DNA from: Alphaproteobacteria bacterium SO-S41
Lineage (GTDB): Bacteria; Pseudomonadota; Alphaproteobacteria; Micropepsales; Micropepsaceae
Length of the DNA stretch: 64,000 bases
Direction: 5' to 3'
Assembly (NCBI GenBank): GCA_019670725.1
Contig: AP024629.1
Coordinates: 1,674,001-1,738,000 of the forward strand
Shown here: positions 5,816 through 13,137 of the stretch, piece by piece
Layout of the letters: every line of letters starts with the position of its first letter
Numbering within the stretch: position 1 is the first letter of the stretch
Made by a program: the position numbers and the translations under genes
The notes under the pieces: model-generated
Database searches by the model: none
Seen by the model: only the letters and a program-made list of their open reading frames with translations
What the model was told of the DNA's origin: nothing

Positions 5816-6376
5816 TCACAACGCGCCGATGACGATCCAGACCCCGATCGCGAGAAAGATCAACGCGGCGATGATGCGCACCACCGAGAGCGGCACGACG
5901 CGGGTGATCGCCTCGCCGAAGATCACGGCGGGAATGTTGGCGAGCATCATGCCCATCGTGGTGCCGAGGGTGACGAGCGCGATGTCGTTGAAGCGGGCGG
6001 CGAGGAGAGAGGTCGCGATCTGCGTCTTGTCGCCGATTTCGACGATGAAGAAGGCGATGAGCGTGGTGAGGAAGACGCCGCCGGCGGTGCGCTGGGCCGC
6101 GCCTTCGTCTTCCTTGTCGGGGATCAGCGCCCAGGCGGCCATCAGGACGAAGGCGCCGCCGATGACGAGCTGGAAGGTCTGGCCGGTCAGCCACTGGGCG
6201 ACGAGATAGCCGGCGCTTGCGGCCAAAGCGTGGTTGGCGAGGGTCGCGGCGAGAATGCCGAGAATGATGGGGACAGGACGGCGAAAGCGCGCCGCCAGCA
6301 CGATGGCGAGCAATTGCGTCTTGTCGCCGATCTCGGCGAGGGCAACGAGGCCCGTGGAAATCCAGACAGCTTCCAT
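5816..6376 (-). CDS. TMEM165/GDT1 (UPF0016) family manganese transporter
   Basis: The 186-residue protein has two homologous halves of three helices, each carrying the family motif EIGDKTQ (about residues 15-21 and 112-118). GDT1-family proteins move Mn2+ (and Ca2+) out of the cytosol, and bacterial members act in manganese homeostasis. The start at 6376 follows GGAG by eight to nine bases. The preceding 5' leader contains a recognisable yybP-ykoY manganese riboswitch, which independently supports a Mn2+ export role. The SemiSWEET gene begins 54 bases downstream on the same strand and may be cotranscribed. Confidence 0.93.
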   Translation of the reverse strand: MEAVWISTGLVALAEIGDKTQLLAIVLAARFRRPVPIILGILAATLANHALAASAGYLVAQWLTGQTFQLVIGGAFVLMAAWALIPDKEDEGAAQRTAGGVFLTTLIAFFIVEIGDKTQIATSLLAARFNDIALVTLGTTMGMMLANIPAVIFGEAITRVVPLSVVRIIAALIFLAIGVWIVIGAL

Positions 6377-6620: not shown

Positions 6621-6633
6621 ACGTAATTTACGT
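6621..6633. promoter_or_regulatory. Palindrome in the divergent promoter region
   Basis: ACGTAA and TTACGT flank one central T, a perfect 6-bp inverted repeat in the AT-rich stretch between the riboswitch leader and the DUF3034 gene. It could be an operator for either direction. No protein can be assigned. Confidence 0.4.
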
Positions 6634-6655: not shown

Positions 6656-7561
6656 ATGGCCTTGACGATCCTCATGAGTGCGAGCCTCGGCCTGTCAGTT
6701 ATGGCGGCCGCCGCGTCGCCGGAACCGCCGCCGCCCAAACTGCGCGGCGGGCAAGATCTTTTCGACCAGGGACGCCTGCTGGCGACCGGCGGCGTGACGA
6801 CCGTCGAAGGTGCGGGGGGCGGAGGACTGGTGCCGTGGGCGACGATCACGGGCTACGGCACGGCCGATGCGATGGGTATCAACGCCCATGCGACGGTGGT
6901 GGATACCGACGACTACCGGCTGGAGACGGCGGGTGTGGCGCTGGGGCTGTTCGACCGGGTCGAGGTCTCCTATGCGCATCAGTGGTTCGACACGAAAGAC
7001 GTCGGTGCGGCGCTGGGGCTCGGCGCGGGGTATCGGATCGAGCAGGATATTTTCGGGGTGAAGCTGCGGCTGTTCGGCGAGCTCGTCTACGACCAGGCGA
7101 CGCTGATGCCGCAGGTGTCGATCGGCGCGCAGTACAAGAAGAACAATCGCGGCGATCTGCTGGCGGCGATCGGGGCGGGGGATGACGAGGGCGTCGACTA
7201 CTACGTCTCGGCGACCAAGTTGTTCCTCGCCGAGAGCCTGCTCGCCAATGTCACGCTGCGCTACACCAAGGCGAACCAGTTCGGCATTCTGGGCTTCGGC
7301 GGCGATCTCAACGACGACTACGAATTCCAGTTCGAGGGCTCGCTCGCCTGGCTGCTCGACAGGCATTTCGCCATCGGGGCGGAATATCGCTCCAAGCCGA
7401 ACAATCTGGGCATCGCGGTCGAGGATGATGCGTGGGATCTGTTCGCGGCGTTCTTCCCGTCGAAGAACCTGTCGATCACCATCGCCTATGCCGATCTCGG
7501 CAACATCGTCATCCGCGACCGCCAGCGCGGCGCCTATCTTTCGCTGCAGGCAGGGTTCTGA
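6656..7561 (+). CDS. DUF3034 family outer-membrane-like protein
   Basis: This 301-residue exported protein has a short signal peptide (cleavage near AAAASPEP) and then repeated amphipathic beta-strands (for example LETAGVALGLFDRVEVSYAH and FGELVYDQATLMPQVSIGAQ), ending in a C-terminal aromatic (SLQAGF). This suggests a beta-barrel-like outer membrane protein. I recognise it as DUF3034, including the N-terminal LFDQGRLLATGGVTTVEGAGG. It is the first gene of a same-strand cluster with an exported haemoglobin, a cupredoxin and a sensor kinase. The start may be GTG/TTG-like upstream, because the first ATG-type codon is close to the palindrome region and no strong RBS is visible. Confidence 0.8.
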   Translation: MALTILMSASLGLSVMAAAASPEPPPPKLRGGQDLFDQGRLLATGGVTTVEGAGGGGLVPWATITGYGTADAMGINAHATVVDTDDYRLETAGVALGLFDRVEVSYAHQWFDTKDVGAALGLGAGYRIEQDIFGVKLRLFGELVYDQATLMPQVSIGAQYKKNNRGDLLAAIGAGDDEGVDYYVSATKLFLAESLLANVTLRYTKANQFGILGFGGDLNDDYEFQFEGSLAWLLDRHFAIGAEYRSKPNNLGIAVEDDAWDLFAAFFPSKNLSITIAYADLGNIVIRDRQRGAYLSLQAGF

Positions 7562-7564
7562 GCC

Positions 7565-7978
7565 ATGCGGGTGTTTGCGCTCCTCCTGATGATCTTCGCC
7601 GGCATGGCTTCGGTGCAGGCGGGCGAGAGCCTCTATGACCGGATGGGTCAGAAGGAGGCCATGGCGCGGATCGCCTCGCGCCTCGTCGATTATTCGGTTG
7701 CTGATCCGCGCATCGAGGAGGCGTTCGCCCAGACCAACATTCCGCGCCTCAAGGGATTGCTGACGCTGTTCTTCTGCAAGACCACCGGCGGGCCGTGCAC
7801 CTATCCGGGGCGCGACATGGCCGCGGCGCACAAGGAGATCGGCATCCGCGACGTCCACTTCAACGCGCTGGTCGAGAACCTGCAGCGGGCGCTCAGCGAT
7901 GAAGGCATCGGCTTCGCGACGCAGAACGAGTTCCTGGCGCTGCTGGCCGCGATGCACGGCGACGTGGTTAACCGCTGA
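7565..7978 (+). CDS. Exported group 1 truncated haemoglobin-like protein
   Basis: The 137-residue product starts with a signal peptide (MRVFALLLMIFAGMASVQAG) and continues with a truncated-globin fold. Visible parts are SLYDRMGQKEAMARIASRLV (A/B helices), ADPRIEEAF, GGPCTYPGRDMAAAH with the probable proximal His of helix F (HKEIGI), and a C-terminal FLALLAAMHGDVV. These proteins bind haem and react with O2 or NO. An N-terminal export signal places it in the periplasm, which is unusual for a globin. It lies three bases after the DUF3034 gene. Confidence 0.88.
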   Translation: MRVFALLLMIFAGMASVQAGESLYDRMGQKEAMARIASRLVDYSVADPRIEEAFAQTNIPRLKGLLTLFFCKTTGGPCTYPGRDMAAAHKEIGIRDVHFNALVENLQRALSDEGIGFATQNEFLALLAAMHGDVVNR

Positions 7979-8043
7979 TTCACACGGCTTCACCGGATGT
8001 TATCGGCGTTCCGATAGCCTCCACGCATAGTTCGGAGACCGAA

Positions 8044-8364
8044 ATGGCCGCGCGCCTTCTTGCCGCAGCGCTCTGCATCGCCTGTCTGACGTCGCCGGCG
8101 TTCGCCGAGACCGTGGTGGTGCGCCAGCATGGCCGGACCTTCGAGCCGGCGGCCATTGAGATCGCGGTGGGCGATACAGTGCAGATCGTCAATGACGACG
8201 AGGGCCTGCTGCACCACGCTTTTCTCGATACGCCGGAATTCTCGTTCGATATCGGCGAGCAGGAAGCGGGGCAGAGCAGCGACGTGCTGTTCCCGGTGCC
8301 GGGCGTGTTCGACGTGTTCTGCGGCATCCATCCCAAGATGAGCCTCATCGTGACGGTCCGCTGA
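8044..8364 (+). CDS. Periplasmic cupredoxin (plastocyanin/azurin-like)
   Basis: The 106-residue protein has a signal peptide (cleavage after SPAFA, residue 21) and a single cupredoxin domain. The type 1 copper ligands are visible as H58 (LLHHAF), C93, H96 and M99 in FCGIHPKM. Such proteins shuttle electrons or sense copper and redox state in the periplasm. It sits between the exported globin (65 bases upstream) and the sensor kinase, whose GTG begins directly after its TGA. A direct input role to the kinase is inferred from that coupling, not shown. Confidence 0.9.
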   Translation: MAARLLAAALCIACLTSPAFAETVVVRQHGRTFEPAAIEIAVGDTVQIVNDDEGLLHHAFLDTPEFSFDIGEQEAGQSSDVLFPVPGVFDVFCGIHPKMSLIVTVR

Positions 8365-10353
8365 GTGGGCATCGCGGTGGATCAGGCGCGCCACGCTCTC
8401 GATGCCGCCGCTGCCGGGCCGGCGCGACGGGCGCGGGCGTTCCTGTCGATCCGCGGCAAGTTCGCGCTCGCGTTCGTTTCCATCTGCTGCATTGTCGCGG
8501 CGATCGGCTGGTTCTCGGTCGCGAGCATGACGCGGGCCGGCGCGTTGCTGGTCGAGACCTATGACAAGCCGCTGATGTCGATCAGTTTCGCGCGCGCCAT
8601 CCATGCCGACTTCGCCTCGATGGAAGCGGCGTTCTCGCGCCGGGTCTCGGAAAGCGATCCCGCGACGCAGGAGAAGCTCGACGCCGATATCGAGGGCTGG
8701 GCTAAGACCTTGCGCGAGGATCTGGGGGTCGCGCGCACCCGGGCGGTGTCGCCCAAGGTGCGGGAGTCCGTGGACAAGATCGCCGCGGCGTTCGACGCCT
8801 GGCAGGCAGCGCGGGCGGCGATGATGAGCAGCGGCGCGGCCCATCCCGAATGGGATGTCGTCGACCGCAGCGCCGCCACGGTGCGCGACCAGATCGACCT
8901 GCTGGTGAACTATGCCGCGGAGGACGGGTTCCGGCAGCGCAAGTCGACGCTGGCGGCGATCGAGGACAACCGGCTGGTGCAGATCGCCGGCCTTGCGGGT
9001 GCCGCGCTGCTGGTGGCGCTGGTCATGTTCAGCTTGACGCAGCGGATCATTCGCCCTGTGGCTGCAGCTTCACGCGCGGCGTCGCGGATCGCGGAAGGCG
9101 AGCTCGATGTCGCCATCGAGGTGTCGGGCCGCGACGAGATCGCCAAGCTGCTGGGCGCCATGGCGATCATGCGGGACAATATCCGCGCGATGATGGAACG
9201 CGAGATCGCGCAGCGCCGTTCGGCGCAGACGCGGCTGGTGGACGCGATCGAGTCCTCCAGCGAAGGCGTCGTGCTGATCGATGCCGACCGCAACGTCCTG
9301 TTGTCGAACGCCGAGATCGAACAGTTCTGCGGCGGCCCGCAGAATGCCCCGCGGGCGGGCGATACGCTGGATGCGGCGGCGGAGCGCGTCGTCGGCGGAG
9401 GGGTTTTCCTGACGCAGACCGAGCAGCAGCGCGCGGAGATGCTGATCCTACTGCGCCGGATGGAGCCGCTGGACCTGGAAGCCCCGCTGGCTGATGGGCG
9501 CTGGGTACGCCTCGCCCGCAGCACGACGACCGATGGCGGCGCGATCTTCATCGTCAGCGACATCACGCTGGCGAAGGAGCGTGAGAATGTGCTGCGCGAC
9601 GTCGCGGTGCGCGCCGAGGCGGCCAATCGCGCCAAGACCGAGTTCCTGGCGACGATGAGCCATGAGCTGCGGACGCCGCTGAACGCGATCATCGGGTTCT
9701 CCGAGGTGCTGGCGTCGCGCCATGCCGAGGATTTCGCGCCGGCCGAGTATGAGGACTATGCGGGCGAGATCCTGGCGAGCGGGCGCAACCTGCTCGGCAT
9801 CATCAACGACATTTTGATGCTGACCAAATGCGAGGCGGGCGACCTGCCGCTGAATATCGACGAGGTCGATATCGTCGAGCTGGCGGAGGATTGCGAGGCG
9901 CGGGTGCGGAACGACTTCGCCGCCGCGGGGATCAAGCTGTCGGTGGATCTGACGCTGGAACCGCTGGCTGTCGCGGCCGATCCCGTGCGGCTGCGCCAGG
10001 TTCTCGCGAACCTTATGTCGAACGCATTGAAGTTCACGCCCGAGGGCGGCGCGGTGCGGCTCAGCGTGCGGCGCGGGGGCGGGGGGCAGGTGGTTTTCGC
10101 CATCGCCGACACCGGCATCGGCATGGCGCCGGAGGACATTCAGGTCGCCCTCTCCGCCTTCGGTCAGGTCGATGGCGGGCGGTCGCGGCTGTATGAGGGA
10201 ACCGGTCTTGGCCTGACGCTCGCCAAGGCGATCGTCGAGCTGCATGGCGGGGCGCTGGACGTCACGTCGGCCAAGGGCGCCGGCACGACCGTCACGGTCT
10301 CGCTGCCGGTTCGCCGATGCGCAGCGGCGCCGGGCCGCTCGGTCGCGGCATAA
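8365..10353 (+). CDS. Membrane-bound sensor histidine kinase (HAMP-PAS-HisKA-HATPase)
   Basis: The 662-residue kinase has a first membrane helix at about residues 31-53 and a periplasmic helical sensor region of roughly 150 residues. A second helix at about 206-225 is followed by HAMP (TQRIIRPVAAASRAASRIAEGEL) and a PAS-like domain (about 287-395). The HisKA box MSHELRTPLNAIIGFS has the phospho-acceptor at H433, and a HATPase domain follows (NLMSNALKF, DTGIGM, GTGLGL). There is no receiver domain and no response regulator nearby, so it is an orphan. GTG 8365 abuts the cupredoxin stop, which strongly suggests cotranscription with it. The periplasmic part is the plausible contact point for the cupredoxin or globin. 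Confidence 0.93.
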   Translation: MGIAVDQARHALDAAAAGPARRARAFLSIRGKFALAFVSICCIVAAIGWFSVASMTRAGALLVETYDKPLMSISFARAIHADFASMEAAFSRRVSESDPATQEKLDADIEGWAKTLREDLGVARTRAVSPKVRESVDKIAAAFDAWQAARAAMMSSGAAHPEWDVVDRSAATVRDQIDLLVNYAAEDGFRQRKSTLAAIEDNRLVQIAGLAGAALLVALVMFSLTQRIIRPVAAASRAASRIAEGELDVAIEVSGRDEIAKLLGAMAIMRDNIRAMMEREIAQRRSAQTRLVDAIESSSEGVVLIDADRNVLLSNAEIEQFCGGPQNAPRAGDTLDAAAERVVGGGVFLTQTEQQRAEMLILLRRMEPLDLEAPLADGRWVRLARSTTTDGGAIFIVSDITLAKERENVLRDVAVRAEAANRAKTEFLATMSHELRTPLNAIIGFSEVLASRHAEDFAPAEYEDYAGEILASGRNLLGIINDILMLTKCEAGDLPLNIDEVDIVELAEDCEARVRNDFAAAGIKLSVDLTLEPLAVAADPVRLRQVLANLMSNALKFTPEGGAVRLSVRRGGGGQVVFAIADTGIGMAPEDIQVALSAFGQVDGGRSRLYEGTGLGLTLAKAIVELHGGALDVTSAKGAGTTVTVSLPVRRCAAAPGRSVAA

Positions 10354-10424: not shown

Positions 10425-11648
10425 ATGGCTGTTACCATTGAAGATATCCGCGCCGCGCAGCGCCTGATCGAAGGCCGCGTCTCGCGCACGCCGTTCAACC
10501 GCGCCCGCACGCTGTCGGACATTACCGGCGCCGAGGTGTTCCTGAAATTCGAGAACCTGCAGTTCACCGCTTCGTTCAAGGAGCGCGGCGCGCTGACCAA
10601 ATTGTCGAGCCTGACCGAGGAAGAGCGCAAGCGCGGTGTCATCGCGATGAGCGCCGGCAATCACGCGCAGGGCGTCGCCTACCACGCCGCGAAGCTGGGC
10701 ATTCCCGCGACCATCGTGATGCCGCTGGGTACGCCGTTCGTGAAGATCAGCCAGACCAAGGGCCACGGCGCACGGGTCATCGTCGATGGCGACGGGCTGG
10801 ATGGCGCGCGGTCGCTCGCCTATGCGCTGGCGGCGGAAGAGAACCTGGTCTTCGTCCACCCCTATGACGACGATGCGATCATCGCGGGGCAGGGCACGCT
10901 GGGCCTGGAACTGCTGGAAGAGGTGCCCGATCTCGACGCGATCATCGTGCCGATTGGCGGCGGCGGGCTGATCTCGGGCGTCGCGACGGCGGCGAAGGCG
11001 CTGAAGCCTTCGATCAAGATCTACGGCGTCGAGACCGAGCTGTATCCGGCGATGCACAACGCCTTCAACAAGGTGAACGAGGAAGAGCGCGGCGGTGGGC
11101 AGACGATCGCCGAGGGTATCGCGGTGCGCGTGATGGGCGAGCGCTGCCTGCCGATCGTCAAGGCGCTGGCGACCGATGTGATCCTGGTGGAGGAGGAGAT
11201 GATCGAGCATTCGATCGCGCTGCTGCTCAATATCGAGAAGACCGTGGTCGAGGGCGCCGGTGCGGCGGGCCTCGCGGCGCTGCTGACGCGGCCGGAACTC
11301 TTCAAGGGCAAGAAGGTCGCGCTGATCCTGTGCGGCGGGAACATCGATCCGCGCCTCCTCTCGAACGTCATCCTGCGCGAGCTGTCGCGCGAGGGGCGGA
11401 TCCTGAATTTCGCGGTGGAGATCGAGGACCGGCCGGGCGTGCTCGCCAAGATCGCGACGCTGGTGGGCGAAGCGGGCGGCAACATCCTGGAGGTCTTCCA
11501 CAACCGTATGCTGACGCATATGCCGGCGAAGATCGCGGAGCTGCGCATCTCCGCCGAGGCCCGTGACCCCGATCATGCGCGCGACGTGATCGCGCATGTG
11601 CGGCATGCCGGGTTCAAGGTGCGCGAGATCGGCGCCGGCGGCGTCTAG
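10425..11648 (+). CDS. ilvA: Threonine ammonia-lyase (threonine dehydratase) with ACT domain
   Basis: This PLP enzyme deaminates L-threonine to 2-oxobutanoate, feeding isoleucine synthesis or threonine breakdown. The PLP-binding lysine is K52 in TASFKERGAL, and the phosphate-binding glycine loop is GGGGLISG near residue 181. A C-terminal ACT domain (about 330-405, ILNFAVEIEDRPGVLAKIATL) suggests amino-acid control. At 407 residues with one ACT domain it matches the shorter biosynthetic/catabolic type rather than the 500-residue IlvA with two ACT-like modules. Its TAG shares CTAG with the stop of the convergent ArsR gene. Confidence 0.92.
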   Translation: MAVTIEDIRAAQRLIEGRVSRTPFNRARTLSDITGAEVFLKFENLQFTASFKERGALTKLSSLTEEERKRGVIAMSAGNHAQGVAYHAAKLGIPATIVMPLGTPFVKISQTKGHGARVIVDGDGLDGARSLAYALAAEENLVFVHPYDDDAIIAGQGTLGLELLEEVPDLDAIIVPIGGGGLISGVATAAKALKPSIKIYGVETELYPAMHNAFNKVNEEERGGGQTIAEGIAVRVMGERCLPIVKALATDVILVEEEMIEHSIALLLNIEKTVVEGAGAAGLAALLTRPELFKGKKVALILCGGNIDPRLLSNVILRELSREGRILNFAVEIEDRPGVLAKIATLVGEAGGNILEVFHNRMLTHMPAKIAELRISAEARDPDHARDVIAHVRHAGFKVREIGAGGV

Positions 11649-11965
11649 CCGAGATTGGTCTTCAGGCGGTCCAGCACGTCCACGGCCTGCGTGGCGTAGG
11701 GGCCGATCCAGCGTTCGTAGATATGCTTGATCGGCAAGGCGTTGAGGTGGTTCCACCGTTCGCGCCCCTTGCGCTGGGCGATCACGAGTTCGGCGTCTTC
11801 CAGCACCTTGAGGTGCTGCATCACCGTGCAGCGGTCGATCTCGGGGAACCGGGCGCAGAGGTCGCCGGTCGTGCGCGGCGTATCCTTCAAGGCATCGAGC
11901 AGAGCGCGGCGCGTGGGGGCGGCCAGCGCCTTGAAAATCGCGTCGCTCGAATCAAGCGTTGACAT
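11645..11965 (-). CDS. ArsR-family transcriptional regulator
   Basis: The 106-residue winged-helix protein has FKALAAPTRRALLDALKDTP at residues 11-30 and a recognition region RCTVMQHLKVLEDAELV. There is no metal-binding CxC. It is divergent from the SRPBCC gene at 12017, repeating the ArsR/SRPBCC partnership seen at 2.4-3.3 kb. Its own start codon lies inside a perfect palindrome (11964-11983), so binding there would block its own expression and probably that of the partner. The stop codon overlaps that of the threonine ammonia-lyase gene. Confidence 0.9.
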   Translation of the reverse strand: MSTLDSSDAIFKALAAPTRRALLDALKDTPRTTGDLCARFPEIDRCTVMQHLKVLEDAELVIAQRKGRERWNHLNALPIKHIYERWIGPYATQAVDVLDRLKTNLG

Positions 11966-12016: not shown

Positions 12017-12499
12017 ATGGATTTGAAGTTCAAGGTCAGCGGACGCATCGCGAAGCCGGTGAGCGAGGTCTTCGAAGCTGTCGCCGACCCGAAGCAGCTG
12101 TCCGGCTATTTCACGACCGGCGGCGCGAAAGGGCGGCTCGAGACCGGCGCGACGGTCATGTGGGACTTCCACGATTTCCCCGGCGCCTTTCCCGTGAATG
12201 TCGTCGAGGTGGAGAAGGACAAGAAGATCGTCCTCAAGTGGGATGCCTATGAGGGCCCGCCGCCGGAACCGGGCAAGCCGCTGCCCGAAGGCACGACCTA
12301 TCAGACGACGGTCACGATGACGTTCGAGCCGGCCGACGGCGACCGGACGCTGGTGACGATTTCAGAAGAAGGCTGGCGCGAAACGCCCAAGGGCCTGCAA
12401 GGGTCGTACGGCAACTGCCAGGGCTGGTCGCAGATGATGTGCTGCATGAAGGCGTATCTGGAGCACGGCATCAATCTGCGCGAGGGATTCTACAAATAG
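12017..12499 (+). CDS. SRPBCC (AHSA1-type) domain protein
   Basis: The 160-residue START-like protein has KVSGRIAKPVSEVFEAVADP at the N-terminus, FHDFPGAFPVNVVEVEKDKKIVL in the middle, and the QMMCCMKAYLEHGINLREGF helix at the C-terminus, as in AHSA1-type SRPBCC proteins. Ligand and activity are unknown. It is transcribed away from its ArsR partner with a shared operator between them. A GAGGAGGGCGAGG purine-rich RBS precedes ATG 12017. A bidirectional terminator follows. Confidence 0.88.
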   Translation: MDLKFKVSGRIAKPVSEVFEAVADPKQLSGYFTTGGAKGRLETGATVMWDFHDFPGAFPVNVVEVEKDKKIVLKWDAYEGPPPEPGKPLPEGTTYQTTVTMTFEPADGDRTLVTISEEGWRETPKGLQGSYGNCQGWSQMMCCMKAYLEHGINLREGFYK

Positions 12500-12558: not shown

Positions 12559-13137
12559 TTAGCCGCCGGTCGGCTGGCGGAAGAACGGCTGGACGTAGCC
12601 CTCGCTGGTCGAGTCCGAGAAGATGCAGGCCTTGGTGAAGTTGTCTTCCATGTAGCAGAGCATCGGGTCCTTGCGGTCGCGGACGGCCTTGTAGGTCTCG
12701 TCGTCCAGCGTCGTTTCGAACTCGTCGCCGGGCTTGGGCGCCTTGTCGGTGGTCGAGAGTTCGACTTTGGTCCATTCGGCGAAGAACTTGTCGACGGCTT
12801 CAGGCGATTGCGGCTCCATCATGTGGCCGGCGTCGAAATTCGCCGCGGCGAGCGAGGTGACGAAGCCGTTGAGCAGCGTGCCGTCCGACTTGGTGATGGT
12901 GAGCGCGACCGCGGAGAGAATGCAGTTCGGGCCGGTGCCGGGATTGACCGCGACCGAGCCTTCACCGGGCTTCACCGGGCCGGGAATGGCGGTGGCCGTG
13001 ACGATGTCGGTGCCCAGCTTGCTCGTGAAGGCGACCTTGGCCGTGTGCGACACGGCGCAAGAGTCGGCTTCGGCAGCGAAGGCGGTGGAACAGGCGAGCG
13101 TCATGAAGGCGGCCGAAGCCAGCAGGCGTACAATCAC
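12559..13137 (-). CDS. Secreted protein of unknown function (paralog 1)
   Basis: This 192-residue protein has a signal peptide ending in ACSTAFAA, with GTG start at 13137 after a GGGGGGA ribosome binding site. Mature features are cysteines in DSCAVS, NCILSAVALTI, MLCYME and KACIF, and the phrase AGHMMEPQSPEAVDKF. It is a tandem duplicate of the gene at 13249-13824, with the same signal peptide core (LLASAAFMTLA) and the same order of motifs. A more distant relative is at 14017. I do not recognise a domain. The paired cysteines suggest a disulfide-stabilised periplasmic protein. Confidence 0.82.
   Translation of the reverse strand: MIVRLLASAAFMTLACSTAFAAEADSCAVSHTAKVAFTSKLGTDIVTATAIPGPVKPGEGSVAVNPGTGPNCILSAVALTITKSDGTLLNGFVTSLAAANFDAGHMMEPQSPEAVDKFFAEWTKVELSTTDKAPKPGDEFETTLDDETYKAVRDRKDPMLCYMEDNFTKACIFSDSTSEGYVQPFFRQPTGG

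Follow-up and report, generated by a model that had tools for sequence, protein, structure and literature searches.

The 64,000-nucleotide stretch of the Alphaproteobacteria bacterium SO-S41 genome that we analyzed (contig AP024629.1, positions 1,674,001 to 1,738,000; hereafter the window) carries four adjoining genes on one strand that encode a DUF3034 protein, a truncated globin, a short cupredoxin (cupS) and a sensor histidine kinase. We favor, with modest confidence, the reading that this locus is a two-part extracytoplasmic gas- or redox-sensing module with interchangeable outputs. Part A would consist of a DUF3034 outer-membrane barrel and a periplasmic heme globin, predicted to be stabilized by a disulfide and, in some relatives, held by a lipid anchor. 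Part B would consist of an exported type-1 copper protein and a transmembrane sensor. Sequence comparisons show that each part is an obligate pair, that the two parts are linked and in most cases adjacent, that the type of output is swapped between lineages, and that the export signals and the heme and copper ligands are conserved. Because the envelope parts stay constant while the outputs differ, the module probably serves to sense extracytoplasmic gas or redox state. The genes, called as open reading frames (ORFs) backed by homology, are separated by 3, 65 and 0 bases, and their coordinates confirm the same-strand arrangement described in an initial annotation of this DNA.

The composition of part A emerged from a sample of 398 Pseudomonadota genomes, 39 of which contained DUF3034. 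In all 38 intact loci of this sample the globin gene directly adjoined the DUF3034 gene. A profile built for the globin subfamily scored at least 124 bits in 41 genomes, 39 with DUF3034 and 2 without, and about 90 bits or less in all others. The subfamily was present in 39/39 DUF3034-positive versus 2/359 DUF3034-negative genomes (Fisher p 4.6e-52, the species not being independent). Within the family of the window genome and close to it, all 13 loci examined had the pair, and among the named loci the globin sat beside DUF3034 in 78 of 80, with L121 and L123 truly lacking it. The hosts of these loci are Alphaproteobacteria (Caulobacteraceae, Sphingomonadaceae, Acetobacteraceae and Nitrospirillum), Betaproteobacteria (Caballeronia and Undibacterium), Xanthomonadales and one metagenome-assembled genome (MAG) of the Bacteriovoracaceae. 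The initial annotation had tentatively mentioned a DUF3034-globin-cupredoxin linkage in other proteobacteria and had proposed co-occurrence beyond close relatives as a test of its reading. Genome comparison bears out this linkage, and the co-occurrence spans alpha-, beta- and gammaproteobacteria. Collectively, these comparisons show that DUF3034 and the exported globin form an obligate pair. Loci L208 and L209 (G328 and G154) each encode an exported-subfamily globin in the absence of DUF3034; these globins have lipoprotein-like signals, and their neighbors are unrelated and include no module genes. At L069 (G078 contig 3) lies a second, broken DUF3034-globin copy in its genome; both genes contain stops or splits, so that the pair has decayed jointly.

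The window globin, the only member of its Pfam family in the genome, matched Bac_globin (PF01152) with 48 bits and is of the group-1 type. Its nearest PDB entries are those of Mycobacterium tuberculosis (Mtb) HbN, with a profile match of 5e-26. We compared 127 globins and 129 DUF3034 proteins after removal of duplicates, from samples that overlapped slightly. The proximal histidine at F8 (His89 in the window protein) was invariant in 127/127 globins and, together with the family match, supports assignment to the group 1 truncated hemoglobins. Position B10, tyrosine in HbN, was V, M, L or I in 114/127 sequences and tyrosine in 5, and position E11, glutamine in HbN, was L, F or I in 126/127 (both positions assigned by alignment to Mtb HbN; Val41 and Leu66 in the window). 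The globin thus lacks the polar TyrB10/GlnE11 distal pocket, a trait typical of HbN although not strictly family-defining. From known globin chemistry, a pocket of this apolar kind would be expected to lower the affinity for O2 compared with nitric oxide (NO) or CO.

By sequence criteria, the globin is exported. Its predicted signal peptide, MRVFALLLMIFAGMASVQA, has an N-terminal hydrophobic segment followed by an AXA-like site; signal peptides here were judged by simple script rules and not by SignalP. An N-terminal hydrophobic segment was found in 120 of the 127 globins, 28 of which also have a lipobox. A cysteine pair (Cys71 and Cys78 in the window) was present in 114 sequences, absent in 12 and reduced to a single cysteine in 1 (p 6e-16). 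The two residues are kept or lost together in 126/127 globins, as would fit a disulfide. The export signals and the cysteine pair led us to reject a cytosolic globin, the location that the initial annotation had named as counting against its proposal.

The partner of the globin is predicted to be an outer-membrane beta-barrel. An AlphaFold2 model built with 37 homologs (like all structure predictions here, a single-chain model) has 12 antiparallel strands, a mean predicted local distance difference test (pLDDT) score of 81.9 and a predicted template modeling (pTM) score of 0.77. Foldseek gave FapF (E 9e-9), OmpG and NanC as its best PDB matches, and a PDB search with the sequence returned only spurious glycine-rich matches. 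The strands and the aromatic C-terminal residue, Phe301, are consistent with the predicted localization. The most conserved segment of the family is glycine-rich and N-terminal (residues 44-62) and has low confidence in the model. The signal peptide of the window protein is weak, with no basic n-region.

In part B, the window cupredoxin falls just short of the Pfam cut-off and reaches the curated threshold of no named cupredoxin family. Its PDB matches are pseudoazurins and the copper nitrite reductase (CuNIR) cupredoxin domain, and its best NCBIfam matches are likewise cupredoxins. A hydrophobic segment at the N-terminus is followed by an AXA-like site. The predicted copper ligands H57, C93, H96 and M99 were each invariant in 26/26 cupS sequences, and in a longer form (cupL) the histidine was kept in 70/71 and the cysteine, second histidine and methionine in 71/71. 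The presence of two histidines, one cysteine and one methionine argues for a type-1 copper protein and predicts copper binding. Three of these ligands had been named in the initial annotation; its fourth, H58, gives way to H57, with which the invariant ligand aligns.

The kinase is built from a transmembrane segment, a periplasmic four-helix bundle (4HB), a second transmembrane segment, HAMP, PAS_7, HisKA (PF00512) and HATPase_c (PF02518); the Pfam matches are 4HB_MCP_1 and these last four domains. His433 (in HELRTPLNA) and the ATP-site motifs were invariant in 11 kinase orthologs, as expected of a sensor histidine kinase with a phospho-acceptor histidine. AlphaFold2 modeled the periplasmic domain as four helices with a mean pLDDT of 91.8; structural matches to this bundle were weak and included chemoreceptor ligand-binding domains and KinB. 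About 51 matches to response-regulator receiver domains occur in the window genome; none lies within about 27 kb of the kinase, and we therefore call the kinase an orphan, in agreement with the initial annotation.

Comparison of relatives ties this sensor to the cupredoxin. The kinase sensor domain was present in 17 of 100 relatives, 12/14 with DUF3034 and 5/86 without (p 5e-10). Six kinases were separate from DUF3034, five in the DUF3034-negative genomes and a sixth on a different contig, and 6/6 lay directly downstream of cupS. At L086 (3826-5955, minus strand), an in-frame ORF of 709 amino acids joins the kinase, a hydrophobic segment resembling a transmembrane helix or signal, and an entire cupredoxin that retains every copper ligand, and is divergent from the DUF3034-globin pair. 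No ATG, GTG or TTG occurs between the last strand of the kinase (V586) and the middle of the hydrophobic segment (L617). These findings show that the cupredoxin and the sensor are an obligate pair. The initial annotation had supposed that the globin and the cupredoxin both deliver the signal to the kinase. The cupredoxin half of that idea is strengthened by the 6/6 pairing and the fusion, whereas the globin is tied to DUF3034 and its share in delivery is a guess.

The same data bear on two other explanations. That four independent genes adjoin by chance is very improbable: linkage is kept across several classes, the association is far beyond chance, and there is one natural fusion. As a general statement, chance adjacency is refuted by the linkage in named loci and the genome-wide co-occurrence. 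It draws what credit it has from the 65-base gap between globin and cupredoxin, from the lack of an experimental transcript and from the ability of the cupredoxin-kinase pair to sit elsewhere in the genome. No sigma-70 promoter-like or terminator-like site was seen between the four genes on the coding strand, which is weak information on transcription. Alternatively, the locus could handle metal, with the barrel passing copper (or heme or iron) through the outer membrane, the cupredoxin acting as a periplasmic copper chaperone or sensor, the kinase reporting periplasmic metal and the globin serving as a heme reservoir or safeguard. Strictly conserved copper ligands, the obligate cupredoxin-sensor pairing and a channel-like barrel fold would all suit this proposal. 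We nevertheless consider it improbable, as genes for copper efflux, chaperones or oxidases do not recur beside the module, a buried type-1 Cys-His-His-Met site is better suited to electron transfer than to metal delivery, and the conservation of the globin is left unexplained.

The sensing reading draws further on the variety of outputs found beside part A, which we cataloged in 129 loci. A dCache-HAMP-GGDEF-EAL protein with the longer cupredoxin was present in 55 and the window-type 4HB histidine kinase in 16. In three loci GGDEF-EAL proteins bore the window-type input domain, as did a methyl-accepting chemotaxis protein (MCP) signaling domain in one (Acidisphaera, L122) and a CheA-like Hpt-HATPase protein with a receiver nearby in one (L128). 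The input-domain hidden Markov model (HMM) recognized these with E-values of 5e-36 (4HB-GGDEF-EAL), 3e-17 (CheA-like), 9e-14 (GGDEF-EAL) and 3e-8 (MCP). An extracytoplasmic function (ECF) sigma factor with a ChrR- or RskA-type anti-sigma factor adjoined 13 loci, and 10 had a CHASE4-type sensor whose sequence stops behind HAMP, with no output domain. Mapped on the DUF3034 tree, the output labels required 35 changes, fewer than when shuffled, with 17 changes among loci with a recognized partner and at least 5 between the kinase and dCache-GGDEF-EAL. The outputs are therefore clustered but have been swapped repeatedly. The initial annotation had envisaged an envelope redox, NO or copper sensing module feeding a kinase; output swapping strengthens the envelope-sensing part of that proposal and makes the kinase merely one output among several.

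Two of these output classes deserve separate mention. ECF sigma genes were noted at L100, L103, L106, L112, L126, L129, L132, L133, L155, L161 and L168; most lie directly upstream, most are accompanied by a ChrR-cupin or RskA anti-sigma gene, and such neighbors offer a possible route to identifying the stimulus. Output-less CHASE4/dCache-type sensors of 308-440 amino acids lie by the long cupredoxin at L107, L108, L113, L114, L116, L119, L120, L134 and L158, in Xanthomonadales and one gammaproteobacterial MAG, and are perhaps degenerate GGDEF-EAL sensors.

From these features we infer how the module might work; the inference covers the binding of heme and copper, the identity of the ligand, the contact between cupredoxin and sensor, the way in which the signal runs and what the barrel does. 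The apolar heme pocket of the globin would bind or turn over a diatomic gas, with NO or CO favored over O2, or would report extracytoplasmic redox state, and the barrel could be a channel that passes the ligand or substrate in or out. Together, globin and barrel would supply or condition a signal in the periplasm, be it NO, O2 or some other redox-active ligand. The cupredoxin, its copper switching oxidation state, would then contact the sensor's periplasmic four-helix bundle and set the activity of the sensor. In the window clade the output would be phosphotransfer by the orphan histidine kinase; in other lineages the same parts lie beside cyclic di-GMP (c-di-GMP) turnover, chemotaxis or sigma-factor control. 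The obligate pairing and the fusion support the cupredoxin-sensor step, and gene linkage is what suggests the step from globin to cupredoxin.

Several observations weigh against the sensing reading. Five relatives have the cupredoxin-kinase pair without DUF3034 or the globin, so the globin would not be required for part B to signal. About 30 of the 129 loci had no recognized sensor nearby (genes in this class may have been missed in GC-rich genomes), implying that part A can function with no part B linked to it. We found no sequence evidence linking the globin directly to the sensor, and no enrichment of a shared regulator site upstream of DUF3034 among those sought (FNR, CRP/NnrR, EcfG, RpoE and palindromes). 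Finally, the ECF sigma/anti-sigma neighbors, an association that rests on adjacency, fit plain transcriptional control of part A equally well. In several lineages this gene pair lies directly upstream, and it features, with the loci lacking a sensor, in an explanation that puts an effector first. DUF3034 and the globin would protect the envelope by scavenging periplasmic NO, O2 or reactive oxygen species, the cupredoxin would donate electrons, and the kinase, GGDEF-EAL protein or ECF sigma factor would regulate the unit or answer the same stress. Cupredoxins are usually electron carriers, and the nearest solved relatives of the globin are of the HbN type, which is linked to NO dioxygenation. 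However, apolar residues take the place of the O2-stabilizing TyrB10 and GlnE11 in almost every member, which is unfavorable for O2-dependent NO dioxygenation. Moreover, when the pairs separate it is the sensor, not the globin, that the cupredoxin accompanies, and in one genome the cupredoxin is fused to the kinase. Nor do outputs such as GGDEF-EAL or MCP regulate the transcription of part A. We regard the effector explanation as rather unlikely, and it keeps about a quarter of our belief because part A occurs with ECF sigma pairs or alone.

On the sensing reading, the closest comparison is with globin-coupled sensors, in which a cytosolic heme globin is fused to GGDEF, HisKA, MCP or HD-GYP outputs (PMC8846402). 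Both have a heme globin with interchangeable outputs of the same classes (diguanylate cyclase, histidine kinase and MCP). In the module, however, the globin is separate, exported, of the 2/2 group-1 truncated type and paired with a barrel, whereas theirs is 3/3 and fused to the output, and it is the cupredoxin that seems directly coupled to the sensor. We rejected membership among the globin-coupled sensors, since globin and output are separate genes in every locus and the sole fusion joins cupredoxin and kinase; a 3/3 protoglobin-like cytosolic globin was likewise discounted, the module globin being of the 2/2 group-1 truncated type and carrying export signals. Tentatively, the module may be a general extracytoplasmic counterpart of these sensors, a split, exported heme-globin and copper-protein receiver with its own barrel that has been connected, in the course of evolution, to c-di-GMP enzymes, histidine kinases, chemoreceptors, CheA-like kinases and ECF sigma/anti-sigma pairs, giving a periplasmic rather than cytoplasmic readout of NO or redox state.

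The individual parts also have known relatives. Mtb HbN (PDB 1idr) shares the fold and proximal histidine and is the best sequence match of the globin family; the module globin differs in its signal peptide or lipobox, its cysteine pair and apolar residues in place of Tyr and Gln at B10 and E11. The cupredoxin resembles the type-1 proteins pseudoazurin, plastocyanin, amicyanin and the CuNIR domain in its His...Cys-x2-His-x2-Met ligands, with amicyanin-like spacing, but its genomic partner is a signaling protein and not a respiratory enzyme. HmsC-HmsD (PMC8846402) and DbfQ-DbfRS (PMC12714742) are three-component systems with a periplasmic accessory protein. They resemble the module in that a small exported protein is encoded beside a transmembrane sensor on which it probably acts; the module differs in having a heme globin and a copper protein as accessories, plus a barrel, and an output class that varies by lineage.

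In the open-access literature searched, we found no description of a DUF3034-globin-cupredoxin-sensor linkage, and the two papers there that mention DUF3034 were uninformative, one apparently through a slip for DUF3037 and the other with an entry in an actinobacterial table. The module is widespread and, within that literature, undescribed. Accounts of bacterial heme-globin sensors present them as cytosolic fusions, and a firm role is lacking for most group-1 truncated globins. Here, a large and previously unlinked subfamily of exported globins gains a constant partner in DUF3034 and a recurrent signaling context. Testable functions are predicted for DUF3034, for cupredoxins that in some cases are annotated through similarity alone and for many dCache-GGDEF-EAL proteins, and output swapping provides a natural experiment in which the same inputs can be tested with a c-di-GMP, kinase or chemotaxis readout.

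Table 1. Features of the DUF3034-globin-cupredoxin-kinase locus in the window.
Feature	Coordinates	Strand	Evidence
DUF3034 protein, 301 aa, predicted outer-membrane beta-barrel	6656..7561	+	Pfam PF11231, 351 bits; AlphaFold2; Foldseek
Exported group-1 truncated globin, 137 aa	7565..7978	+	Pfam Bac_globin; nearest PDB Mtb HbN; residue conservation
Exported short cupredoxin (cupS), 106 aa	8044..8364	+	Pseudoazurin and CuNIR cupredoxin-domain matches; ligand conservation
Orphan sensor histidine kinase, 662 aa, GTG start	8365..10353	+	Pfam; 11-ortholog alignment; no receiver domain within ~27 kb
Kinase periplasmic 4-helix-bundle input domain	8518..8964	+	AlphaFold2; family-specific HMM

The locus is flanked by genes for a GDT1-type cation exporter on the opposite strand (5816-6376) and a threonine ammonia-lyase (10425-11648), neither of which is kept beside the module in other genomes. 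The palindrome ACGTAATTTACGT lies at 6621-6633, about 25 bases upstream of DUF3034, and is not conserved among relatives. A PADLOC search found no defense homology, and an Rfam scan gave a tRNA as its sole match. Farther downstream, a divergent pair encodes an ArsR-like regulator and a START/AHSA1-like protein (11645-11965, minus strand, and 12017-12499, plus strand). Beyond it lie tandem paralogous genes for small exported proteins of unassigned function (12559-13137 and 13249 to about 13900, both minus strand) that share the motif ANFDAGHMMEPQSPEA.

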